This document shows, piece by piece, positions 12,300-23,355 of a DNA stretch of 64,000 nucleotides. Origin of the DNA: Gimesia sp. (GTDB lineage Bacteria; Planctomycetota; Planctomycetia; Planctomycetales; Planctomycetaceae); the NCBI RefSeq assembly GCF_040219335.1, contig NZ_JAVJSQ010000031.1:1-64000 (forward strand). The letters run 5' to 3'. The notes beneath the pieces were generated by a model. It saw only the letters and a list, made by a program, of their open reading frames with translations. It searched no databases and was not told the origin of the DNA. The stretch's first letter is position 1, and each line of letters begins with the position of its first letter. A program made the translations under genes and the position numbers.

Positions 12300-12327
12300 T
12301 CACATCACTTCCCCCCGCCCCTTACAC

Positions 12328-12368
12328 GCAAGATGCTGCACGCACCCTGCAAGTCTTTGCACGCCCTT
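12328..12368 (+). repeat. imperfect tandem 20-mer, possible activator site upstream of sbtA
   Basis: Two adjacent imperfect copies of a GCAAGxTxxTGCACGCxC unit lie at 12328-12348 and 12349-12368. They sit about 145-180 nt before the candidate -24/-12 element at 12494, the distance usual for an enhancer of a sigma-54 activator. The repeat is seen; the role is inferred. Confidence 0.35.
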
Positions 12369-12493
12369 GCTGCAAAATCTGGTTCACTCCTCTCCCTTGC
12401 GAAAAATTATTTCAGATAACTGGATCTGTATCTCAGGCAGAAAACCGGCCAAAACCCTCTCTCTACGTGCCAGCCCCGATTATTTTTCCTCTG

Positions 12494-12509
12494 CGGCACA
12501 CTGCTTGCA
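12494..12509 (+). promoter_or_regulatory. candidate sigma-54 promoter of sbtA-sbtB
   Basis: CGGCACACTGCTTGCA has GG and GC at the obligatory 12-nt step, plus GGCAC and TTGCA. The only clear departure is C for T before GG. It lies 104 nt upstream of the sbtA start, leaving a leader of about 90 nt. Confidence 0.4.
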
Positions 12510-12529
12510 TCTCCCCCAGTCATACTCGC

Positions 12530-12549
12530 CACGTTGGTCAGTCAACGTG
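12530..12549. promoter_or_regulatory. perfect inverted repeat CACGTTG-N6-CAACGTG before sbtA
   Basis: Seven-base arms at 12530-12536 and 12543-12549 with a 6-nt spacer, 63 nt upstream of the sbtA start. It may be an operator or a small leader hairpin. No T-run follows, so it is not a terminator. Confidence 0.4.
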
Positions 12550-12612
12550 CAAATAAATGCGCCCCCCAGCGGCACTGACGCCGACCAAACCCGCCCCCCA
12601 AGGAACACAACC

Positions 12613-13866
12613 ATGTTAGAGGCCTTTCTGGACAATTTCCTGCATAACCTCTTTAAACCGCTGCTGCTTTTCTTTTACATGGGCTTTCTGATTCCTATCC
12701 TCAAAGTTCCCTTTGAGTTTCCCAAAGCCGTCTATCAGGGTCTGACCCTCTACCTGCTGATTGCCATTGGCTGGCACGGCGGTGAAGAACTGGCGTCCCT
12801 CTCGATCTCCGAATTCGGGCAGGCACTCGGATTCATGGTCATCGGCTTTTTCGCAAATCTCATGATCGGGATTTTCGCCTATATCCTCCTGCAAAAAACC
12901 ACCAAGCTGCGTCAGATCGACGCCGCCACCGTGGCCGGTTTCTACGGATCCGACTCAGCCGGTACCTTCGTAACCTGCCTGGGTGTCATCACTGCAGCAC
13001 AAATCGCTTACGCGGCTTACATGCCTGTGATGCTGGCGGTCATGGAAATTCCCGGTTGTCTGGTCGCCCTCTATCTCGTCTCGCGTCTGCGACAGAAAGG
13101 GATGGATGCTCACGGAAACATGCCTCATGAAGCAGACTATCAGCCTCCGCATTCCGCACCGGTCCTGGAAGGTACCGACGGAGAAGAAGTCTCTGTCAGT
13201 AGCGAAGGTGCATCGGTCGGCCACCAGTCTACCGGAACGACTCACACTCAGACCGCCGTCGCCGCGAAAACGGCAGCCCGTCGCGAACTGGCTGCTCAAC
13301 TGGACGTGGAAGTCGCAGAACAGAAAAAACCGATCTTCAGCAAAGAACTCCTGCACGAAGTCTTCCTGAACCCGGGACTCTACCTCCTGTTCGGTGGGAT
13401 TATCATCGGCTTCCTCGGACGCCTGCAGGGCAAAGCAGTCACCAGCCTGGATGACACCCTGTTTGTGAATATCTTCCACGGAATGCTCTGTCTCTTCCTG
13501 CTGGAAATGGGCATCACAGCCTGTCGTCGCCTGAAAGACCTCAAAACAGCCGGCTGGCGGTTCATCATGTTTGCACTGCTCTGCCCCAACCTGTTTGCTT
13601 TGTTCGGCATTCTCGTGGCTCACGGCTACAGCATGGCCCTGGGACAGCCCTTTGATCTGGGAACCTACGCTCTGTTCTCAGTCCTGTGTGCCGCTGCCTC
13701 GTACATCGCAGTACCCGCGGTCCAGAGACTGGCCATCCCTGAAGCCAGCCCGACGCTACCCCTGGCAGCTTCGCTTGGTCTGACCTTCACTTACAACGTG
13801 ACGATCGGAATCCCGGTTTATATGCTCATCGCCGAGCTGGTCATGAAAACCTTACCCGTAGCATAA
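12613..13866 (+). CDS. sbtA: SbtA-type sodium-dependent bicarbonate transporter
   Basis: 417 residues. SbtA proteins are inner-membrane Na+/HCO3- symporters first known from cyanobacteria and present in many heterotrophs. I chose the ATG at 12613 because AAGGAA precedes it and the protein then begins as the family does (MLEAFLDNFLHNLFKPLLLFF). About ten membrane segments are arranged in two inverted halves, with AATVAGFYGSDSAGTF in the first and AAASYIAVPAVQRL in the second half. A hydrophilic loop of about 85 residues, rich in His, Thr, Ala and Glu, joins the halves. In characterised SbtA a cytosolic loop of this kind contacts SbtB. The next gene, 76 nt downstream, is that partner. Confidence 0.9.
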   Translation: MLEAFLDNFLHNLFKPLLLFFYMGFLIPILKVPFEFPKAVYQGLTLYLLIAIGWHGGEELASLSISEFGQALGFMVIGFFANLMIGIFAYILLQKTTKLRQIDAATVAGFYGSDSAGTFVTCLGVITAAQIAYAAYMPVMLAVMEIPGCLVALYLVSRLRQKGMDAHGNMPHEADYQPPHSAPVLEGTDGEEVSVSSEGASVGHQSTGTTHTQTAVAAKTAARRELAAQLDVEVAEQKKPIFSKELLHEVFLNPGLYLLFGGIIIGFLGRLQGKAVTSLDDTLFVNIFHGMLCLFLLEMGITACRRLKDLKTAGWRFIMFALLCPNLFALFGILVAHGYSMALGQPFDLGTYALFSVLCAAASYIAVPAVQRLAIPEASPTLPLAASLGLTFTYNVTIGIPVYMLIAELVMKTLPVA

Positions 13867-13942
13867 CCAACTTTACCCCACTGATTAAATCACCGTTGAA
13901 ACCAGAGAAAGTATCGAGCCCAGTCTCACAGGAAACCACGAC

Positions 13943-14254
13943 ATGGCTACCACCACCGAATTAACCAAAGTCATTGTCATCACCGAAACCCATTTCGAAC
14001 AGGAACTCTTAAACGCGTTCCGCGAACTGGGAATCAAAGGCTTTACCTGTATGAACTGCTGGGGACAGGGTCACCACCAGGTCTACGACGAGCCCTTTAT
14101 CGGACACTCCCAGACCCGCATTGAAATTATCACCACTGAAGAGATCGCCGAATCGATCGTCGATTACTGTCGGCAGCCTCGCTTCGAATCCCATGCGATT
14201 TCCGCCTACCTGGAATCCGTGCGTGTCCGAGACCCTAACAAATTCATCGCCTGA
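13943..14254 (+). CDS. sbtB: SbtB-like PII-family regulator
   Basis: 103 residues, a single PII-like ferredoxin-fold domain. Phrases such as KVIVITETHFEQELLNAFRE, GIKGFTCMNCWGQGHH and RIEIITTEEIAESIVDYC match the PII-like SbtB/DUF3240-like pattern: beta strand, helix, flexible T-loop, second beta-alpha-beta. SbtB trimers bind adenine nucleotides (cAMP, c-di-AMP, AMP, ADP, ATP) and gate SbtA. Position directly after sbtA supports the call. The C-terminus (RVRDPNKFIA) lacks the CGPxGC redox loop found in some cyanobacterial SbtB proteins, so thiol control of the tail is not expected. AGGAAA precedes the ATG. The nucleotide it binds cannot be told from sequence. Confidence 0.85.
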   Translation: MATTTELTKVIVITETHFEQELLNAFRELGIKGFTCMNCWGQGHHQVYDEPFIGHSQTRIEIITTEEIAESIVDYCRQPRFESHAISAYLESVRVRDPNKFIA

Positions 14255-21915: not shown

Positions 21916-23355
21916 TCACTGTGAAGTAGACATGGTCCCTGATTCGTGCAAGCCTTTCTTCGTGGCATCAGAATGACCATTCCCGCGATTATCCCCGATC
22001 ACCCCCCAGGCTTTCAACTTCCTCTGCAGCGTCCTCACGGATACTCCCAGTGAGCGGGCCGACTGAGTCCGGTTTCCCCGATAGCGTTTGAGTGTCTGTT
22101 CGATCGCCGTGCGTTCCAGGTCTTCCAGCCGGGTCCCTGCCGGAATCGGAATCTGGCCTGAAGTCAGTTGCTCGTCGTGCATCATGTCGGGCAGCTCGGC
22201 CAGTGTCAGCACTTCTTCACGCGACAGCACCAGCATACTCTCCAGACAGTTACGCAGTTGACGAATATTGCCTGGCCAGTGGGCATTCCGCAACCAGGCT
22301 TCCAGCTCAGGATCCAGCAGCGGCACATCGCGCTGCAGATCATGGCAAATCTGTTTCAGGAAAAAGTTCACCAGCATCGGAATATCAGCCCGTCGTTCTC
22401 GTAATGGCGGTAACACCAGATTAACGACATTCAGCCGATAGAACAGGTCTTCGCGAAAGTCTCCCGTCTGTACCATCTGATGCAATGGATGACTGGTCGC
22501 CGCGATGACGCGCACATCCACATCCCGGTCCTGATTACTGCCGATCAGGGTCACACGATGATTTTCCAGTACCCGCAGCAGCTTGGCCTGAGACTCCAGT
22601 TTGAAGTCACCGATCTCATCGATGAACAGGGTTCCGCCATGTGCTGCTTCAAAACGTCCCACTCGGGATTCGCTGGCACCGGTAAAGGAACCTTTCACGT
22701 GTCCGAACAGTTCACTTTCCACCAGGTGTTCCGGCACCGCAGCCATGTTGATCGTCACAAAAGGATGTTCTGCACGCAGGCTGTTACGATGAATCGCTTC
22801 CGCCAGTAGTTCCTTCCCGGTTCCTGATTCACCCGTAATCAATACCGTACTGTCCGTACCGGCGACGCGTTGCACCCGTTCAAACAGCTGCTGCATCACC
22901 TGGGTCGTCCCCACCATCTTTTCGAATCCCACGTAACGCTCCAGCCGGGCAGAGCTGGATCCGTGCTGATCTTCCACAGCAACACGCGATTGACGGGCCT
23001 GCAGATATCCCTTGATCAACTTTACCAGGGACTCAGGCTGCAACGGTTTGACCAGAAATTCGTCTGCCCCCTCTTTCATTGCGGCGACAGCTGTAACCAC
23101 ATCACTGGTGTGTGACAAAATCAGAAAAGGCACATCGGGTGCCTGTTGTTTACAGAGATAAAGCAGCTCGAGAGAGATACTGACATCCTCTCCGGTATCG
23201 CAGAGAATCAGATCGACTCTCTGTTCCAGCTGTCGGGATACCTCATCAGGCACGCAACACGTAATCTGACAGAAATCCTGTTTTGACAGCCAGTTGTATA
23301 TTTCTGAGTCTGAAGATTGTTCTTCTGATATGAGCAGTAAATGGTTGTTAGACAT
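21916..23355 (-). CDS. NtrC-family sigma-54 activator with atypical receiver
   Basis: 479 residues in three parts. Residues 5-120 are a receiver domain with Asp53, Ser81 and Lys103 at the expected places, but the acidic pair that binds Mg2+ is SEE (10-12) instead of the usual DD or DE, so phosphorylation is uncertain. Residues 140-370 are the AAA+ domain: Walker A GESGTGK (175-181), the sigma-54 contact loop GSFTGA (222-227; the usual first residues are GAFTGA) and Walker B LFIDEIGD. The end holds a Fis-type helix-turn-helix ([20 protein letters not shown]). No histidine kinase gene is nearby. The gene has its own strong -24/-12 promoter at 23401-23416, so autoregulation is likely, and GGGGGAG sits before the ATG. 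Confidence 0.93.

Follow-up and report, generated by a model that had tools for sequence, protein, structure and literature searches.

The window (the whole stretch of 64,000 nucleotides analysed here, part of contig C31 of a 7.93-Mb planctomycete genome) carries a gene pair resembling sbtA-sbtB, which raises the question of what controls such a pair, and to what end, in this organism. No Rubisco large subunit was found in the genome, which fits the reading of its bearer as a heterotroph (other fixation routes were outside the search). In heterotrophs, the carboxylations of anaplerosis and biosynthesis depend on bicarbonate (PMC9894237). No account of how a heterotroph controls its bicarbonate supply was met, the carbon-supply controls encountered being cyanobacterial. 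A preliminary description of the locus, made from the sequence alone, had proposed a complete SbtA-SbtB pair under sigma-54 control linked to nitrogen or carbon. The genome was found to have a single Sbt_1 gene and a single RpoN.

The sbtA gene (12613-13866, plus strand) encodes a 417 aa member of the Na+-dependent bicarbonate transporter family with a long cytoplasmic loop, matching Pfam PF05982 (Sbt_1) with an E value of 2.4e-96 and 323.1 bits against a curated cut-off of 27. NCBIfam gave no name for this product or for the PII-type protein encoded downstream. The SbtA structure 7cye was matched with an E value of 7e-21, and identity to solved SbtA is low at 18–20%. A predicted model (pLDDT 77.7, pTM 0.77, with residues 181-240 forming a low-confidence loop) returned SbtA for all of its top five Foldseek matches in the PDB (E 6e-13 to 4e-10), with ASBT next at 9e-4; the fold is thus predicted to be that of SbtA and not of ASBT or an antiporter. 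Four residues of Synechocystis SbtA have been docked to bicarbonate, namely Ser114, Tyr140, Ser324 and Ser327 (PMC8352866). Two of these are kept in the alignment (Ser115 and Ser363) and two are replaced (Leu141 and Ala366), with alanine at the Ser327 position throughout the 27 aligned SbtA proteins of planctomycetes, those of the short type included.

The second gene (13943-14254, plus strand) begins 76 bp after sbtA and encodes a protein of 103 aa belonging to PF00543 (P-II; E 7.8e-12, 45.9 bits against a cut-off of 25). Its best structure match is TTHA0516 (2cz4, E 2e-8), and SbtB (6mm2 and 6n4a) is matched at E values of 2e-6 to 3e-6. In SbtB, the RxxR of the T-loop holds the phosphates of ATP (PMC10117731). 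This motif is missing from the protein of the window when aligned to 6mm2, His45 and Tyr48 being found there instead, as is the C-terminal CGPxGC redox loop present in only some SbtB proteins (the sequence ends in RDPNKFIA). Since both features are lacking, the protein is referred to as SbtB-like. All eight genus members aligned have Cys36-x2-Cys39 and His44-His45, and it is possible that the protein binds metal or is redox-active. The Cys-x2-Cys and His-His residues (codons 36-48) occupy the stretch where cyanobacterial SbtB has RxxR. The sbtA gene and the sbtB-like PII gene are therefore real, and the claim of a complete pair holds for the genes with the second protein being only SbtB-like; Na+-dependent bicarbonate transport is inferred.

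Upstream of sbtA, an enhancer (upstream activator sequence) was identified at 12327-12362, consisting of two TGCA-N6-TGCA dyads spaced by 21 bp. It conforms with zero mismatches, read on the minus strand, to a pattern drawn from the comparison of relatives (STGCA-N5-TTGCR twice, 21 bp apart), and the two direct repeat copies at 12328-12343 and 12349-12364 are 75% alike at the same 21 bp spacing. The tandem 20-mer which had been described at 12328-12368 therefore holds, as this tandem-dyad enhancer. The sigma-54 consensus consists of GG and GC 10 bases apart in a TGGCAC/TTGC context. The -24/-12 element which had been proposed at 12494 also holds, as CGGCACACTGCTTGCA (12494-12509, plus strand), with a match of 10 out of 12 to TGGCACGN4TTGCW and a transcription start near 12520 inferred from spacing. 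When the examined loci are cut into single-strand windows of 200 bp, 1.1% of these contain a match scoring at least 10. No sigma-70-like site was detected between 12300 and 12612.

Upstream regions of sbtA were compared with those of 10 relatives from the same genus and 10 from other genera. Counting the window there are 11 genus members, and ten of them have a GG-N10-GC element scoring 9–10 of 12 at 117–130 bp ahead of the start codon. The exception is L039 (genome G033), where the ribosome-binding site and the sbtA start codon are separated by an insertion sequence. Beyond it all three elements are intact, namely the enhancer, the inverted repeat described below and a -24/-12 element lying 149 bp from the centre of the enhancer; the stretch concerned is also represented by L140:1440-2760. 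The distance from enhancer centre to CGGCACACTGCTTGCA is likewise 149 bp in the window and 131–162 bp across the sbtA genes of the genus. Among long-type sbtA upstream regions of other genera, 16/30 score 9 or more, the null expectation for one 200-bp window being 4.8%; as the loci are related and several share one genome, the comparison does not amount to a formal test.

The third element described previously, a perfect inverted repeat at 12530-12549 (CACGTTG-N6-CAACGTG, 7-bp arms), holds as sequence, having been read directly as it is shorter than the length cut of the repeat search. It is identical in L034-L036 and L140 (with diverged flanks in L140), is confined to five close genomes and is absent in more distant members of the genus. 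It could be an operator or form an RNA hairpin, and its role remains unsettled. A second, possible short leader hairpin (CGGC-N6-GCCG, 12570-12583, plus strand) lies just before the ribosome-binding site; its pairs are kept in 86.4% of cells, both partners of one pair differ in 3 sequences, and 41 of 500 shuffles score as high. As the covariation is weak, this leader RNA hairpin was rejected.

The enhancer pattern occurs at only three sites in the whole genome. Besides that before sbtA, one is found at C5:269842, with CGGTATGCCTCTTGCA at a distance of 163 bp and then a beta-carbonic anhydrase gene, and one at C5:273806, between a Porin_O_P gene and a kinase/regulator pair, HK2-RR2. No match was obtained in 40 first-order resamples (117 kb of DNA of this genome) compared with the 3 observed. 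The carbonic anhydrase (312 aa; PF00484, 63.9 bits) contains CSDAR and HTGC, words typical of the zinc site, and is 63% identical over the matched part to one encoded between sbtA and sbtB in L033, an arrangement also seen in L040 and L041. Genes joined in a single locus in relatives thus stand separately here, with the same switch kept.

Seventeen genomes of the genus were scanned with up to 1 mismatch allowed, and the neighbours of each site were identified by tblastn. Twelve have the enhancer, at 1–3 distinct sites each, and all twelve carry the sbtA site (in G035 just the final 36 codons of sbtA were detected after the promoter). The 29 distinct sites (from 30 rows, one G025 site having been read on both strands) lie at sbtA (12), at beta-carbonic anhydrase (5), between porin and HK2 (8), at HK2 without porin (3) and at a second sbtB (1), with no other neighbour class among them. 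Measured from the enhancer centre, a -24/-12 element scoring 9 or 10 of 12 follows at 131–164 bp in every one of the sbtA, carbonic anhydrase and second-sbtB sites (18/18); towards the porin gene there is one at 134–164 bp in 6/8 cases and none in 2/8. The reversed pattern had no match in the 17 genomes. The second sbtB-like gene (L115:1709-1963 in G025) is 73% identical over the matched part, lies far from sbtA and has its own enhancer with a -24/-12 element at about 149 bp. Allowing 2 mismatches added known sites read in mirror image or with a shift, some single sites, and a site common to G000, G028, G029 and G030; a similar site is shared by G032, G033 and G035, with no clear target at L282 (G035), the sole one inspected. 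Nitrogen control was considered and rejected, as no nitrogen gene was found among the 29 genus sites; of the two links first proposed, carbon is hence favoured.

It is the pair beside the third site that is the candidate regulator. HK2-RR2 (C5 near 274.0–276.8 kb) is of the NtrC type, RR2 (C5:275411-276769) having a PF00072 receiver, a PF00158 AAA+ domain (230 bits) and a PF02954 Fis HTH. HK2, the membrane histidine kinase of the pair, combines kinase domains with a PAS domain and, as judged by eye, a hydrophobic N-terminal part. Most sigma-54 activators have a GAFTGA loop. The loop of RR2 is GSFSGA here and in the genus, and GSFTGA, GSFSGA or GAFTGA in orthologues elsewhere, while its recognition helix is nearly invariant across genera. 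RR2 was found in 10/17 genus genomes, all ten having both enhancer and sbtA, and the five genomes without the enhancer (G026, G027, G036, G037 and G038) have neither RR2 nor sbtA. It was not found in two enhancer-bearing but incomplete genomes, G035 (76% complete) and G039 (92%). The resulting 10/2/0/5 table gives a one-tailed Fisher probability, calculated by hand, of 66/19448 (~0.003), relatedness being ignored. The enhancer is close to HK2, yet no good -24/-12 element was seen for HK2 itself.

The HK2 PAS domain was considered as the seat of a conserved Cys/His sensor site. This was rejected, since the site is present in both own-genus members aligned but not conserved among 16 HK2 proteins. 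There are 15 matches to sigma-54 activators in the genome (E ≤ 1e-55). A sigma-54 activator domain also lies in the window itself at 22417-22917 (minus strand), ~8.2 kb downstream of sbtB, and is the best match of neither sbtA-linked regulator tested. The one-contig genome G033 possesses RR2 and enhancer sites at carbonic anhydrase and between porin and HK2; RR1, a further regulator discussed below, was not found in it.

In the rest of the family RR2 was detected in 21 of 153 other genomes (E 1e-125 or better), at 64–73% identity. Scanning of 20 of these carriers (G097, a fragmentary match, was omitted) and of 5 genomes without RR2 revealed the pattern in 18/20 and 0/5, respectively, with one match to the reversed pattern (G083). 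The 31 distinct sites are situated at dabA (13), HK2 (3), between porin and HK2 (3), at carbonic anhydrase (2) and elsewhere (10). DabA was confirmed by Pfam for all 10 proteins tested, and for the other three (G047, G095 and G161) by a match to the DabA family next to the site. A -24/-12 element scoring 10 or 11 follows at 126–215 bp in twelve of these 13 cases, the site of G064 having none. The DabA copies of our genome have no enhancer. In G095, a PTS EIIA-2 gene just after RR2 has in front of it both a match to the enhancer (L185:1182-1217) and, at a distance of 188 bp, a -24/-12 element with a score of 11. A SulP transporter accompanies sbtA in L045, L049, L089, L093, L094 and L095, and in the same loci except L095 small proteins of cluster c4 lie beside sbtA; the two of these compared with Pfam gave no match.

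A scan of named genomes yielded 12 planctomycete RR2 loci at 66% identity or above. Within the limited stretch available per locus, the pattern (≤ 2 mismatches) is present in six of these and missing in the other six, including those of Rhodopirellula solitaria, Neorhodopirellula pilleata and Stieleria tagensis. By the same criterion, distant RR2 relatives (40–46%) had the pattern in 0/67 loci. The sole match among 68 such loci, L216 (JAGRAW010000051.1), was excluded from these controls. It belongs to a metagenome bin labelled Bdellovibrionales and holds a 90%-identical RR2 sequence, a porin and the enhancer, and was set aside as it is probably a misbinned contig of our own planctomycete genus.

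Together these observations make it likely that HK2-RR2, acting via sigma-54, governs a small inorganic-carbon regulon to which sbtA-sbtB belongs. The genes, the enhancer, the -24/-12 sites with their spacing, the exclusivity of the pattern and its co-occurrence with RR2 are shown by sequence; binding, activation, the direction of the response and the signal are inferred. Several observations weigh against this reading, namely the two incomplete enhancer-bearing genomes in which RR2 was not found, the 10 of 31 sites elsewhere in other genera, the six named RR2 loci without the pattern, the missing -24/-12 elements for HK2 and at 2/8 porin-side promoters, the DabA copies of our genome with no enhancer, the GSFSGA loop of RR2 and the linkage of RR1 (discussed below) to sbtA. 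The control of sbtA by an enhancer and a -24/-12 promoter, as first proposed, is supported by conservation of both at sbtA throughout the genus (the inverted repeat being restricted as described), by their near-fixed distance and by their reuse at carbonic anhydrase, the second sbtB and dabA, in the absence of expression or binding data. In the proposed mechanism, shortage of CO2 or bicarbonate would lead HK2 to phosphorylate RR2, which would then bind the pair of TGCA dyads, set two turns of the helix apart, and loop to RNA polymerase-sigma-54, giving an open complex at 12494-12509 and a start near 12520. SbtA would import bicarbonate with sodium, gated by the SbtB-like protein, with the beta-carbonic anhydrase balancing CO2 and bicarbonate. 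The outer-membrane anion porin, a probable target, may pass bicarbonate through the outer membrane. The most likely purpose would be to provide bicarbonate for anaplerotic and biosynthetic carboxylations when supply is short. In other genera, HK2-RR2 is predicted to drive DabA and beta-carbonic anhydrase.

A bolder reading, towards which the balance tips only slightly, is that HK2-RR2 is a dedicated planctomycete sensor of CO2/bicarbonate supply controlling whichever importer the lineage has (DabA or SbtA-SbtB) along with carbonic anhydrase and the outer-membrane anion porin. This would be a Rubisco-less, sigma-54-run stimulon in which the importer has been exchanged under a conserved switch.

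The main rival to the HK2-RR2 reading, considered unlikely, is that sbtA is activated by another regulator of the NtrC type, RR1 (C5:245230-246696), with the TGCA enhancer being its site or an auxiliary one. In its favour, RR1 and a hybrid kinase lie upstream of sbtA and co-oriented with it in G032, G025 and G034, RR1 is upstream of the sbtA promoter in G035, and orthologous kinase/regulator pairs adjoin long-type sbtA in L042, L047, L084, L095, L101 and L106, with -24/-12 scores of 9–10. However, the pattern is absent from all four tested genomes with RR1 and without RR2 (G007, G140, G102 and G135), G027 has RR1 with neither sbtA nor enhancer, and G033 has three enhancer sites with RR1 not found. 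The recognition helices of RR1 and RR2 also differ, and sbtA upstream regions linked to RR1 have TGGCCA words instead (11 in 6 regions vs. 7 in 35). As the enhancer and RR1 do not co-occur, RR1 was demoted to a rival. The simplest reading is that long-type sbtA was placed under an NtrC-type regulator on two or more occasions, this regulator being RR2 in our genus and RR1 elsewhere, although joint control by both within the genus is possible and is not excluded.

TGGCCA occurs before RR1-linked sbtA in L042, L084, L095, L101 and L106, with none in L047, and may be the RR1 site. At L103:11479-16133, the gene for RR1 precedes those for a PAS-GAF hybrid kinase that includes Hpt and for a membrane protein with a TrkA_C domain; a TrkA_C membrane protein is encoded directly upstream of sbtA in L033, L038 and L040.

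A second alternative, judged very unlikely, accepts the regulon and disputes the substrate, with the long-loop SbtA carrying an anion other than bicarbonate. It draws on the replacement of 2/4 docked residues (Leu141 and Ala366) and the 18–20% identity to solved SbtA. Against this, carbonic anhydrase, DabA, SulP and the SbtB-like protein are neighbours or co-targets, and the alanine at the Ser327 position is common to all 27 planctomycete SbtA proteins aligned, including the short type. That sbtA is served by a housekeeping promoter, with nothing out of the ordinary in the sequence elements before it, is all but excluded: a lone match of 9 to 10 of 12 is not rare in 8 Mb and there is no mapped transcript, but the conservation, spacing and exclusivity of the elements and the lack of a sigma-70-like site upstream speak against it.

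If the HK2-RR2 reading is correct, two unrelated importers, SbtA and DabA, are joined under one switch. The system combines a kinase/regulator pair with a readable enhancer of 36 bp and has few enough targets for all of them to be tested, and the enhancer could be used as bait for more inorganic-carbon genes in planctomycetes. In the open-access literature searched (titles and abstract openings; most subscription papers and all bioRxiv preprints were outside its scope), neither SbtA nor DabA was found to be described as controlled by sigma-54 or an NtrC-type regulator, and no such planctomycete system was found. DAC is known to occur in heterotrophs (PMC13144422), in a paper where "transcription" is not a word of the main text.

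With respect to known systems, the pair shares its transporter fold and gene pairing with cyanobacterial SbtA-SbtB (Synechocystis slr1512/slr1513). It differs in that the SbtB-like protein is without CGPxGC and RxxR and has CxxC and His-His, in that the genome is without Rubisco, and in its predicted control by an NtrC-type regulator and sigma-54, whereas sbtAB of cyanobacteria is controlled mainly by NdhR (PMC10117731). NdhR is a LysR-type regulator. With NtrC-family two-component sigma-54 systems RR2 has in common its receiver, AAA+ and Fis-type HTH domains, an enhancer 131–164 bp from the -24/-12 element and an RpoN in the genome. Unlike other systems of this family, its predicted targets are inorganic-carbon genes, its motif is a tandem TGCA-N6-TGCA and its loop in the genus is GSFSGA. 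Finally, the link to DabA/DabB (DAC) pumps is through DabA, the target of the same enhancer in other genera; in our own genus the DabA genes are without it, and the enhancer is found at sbtA instead.
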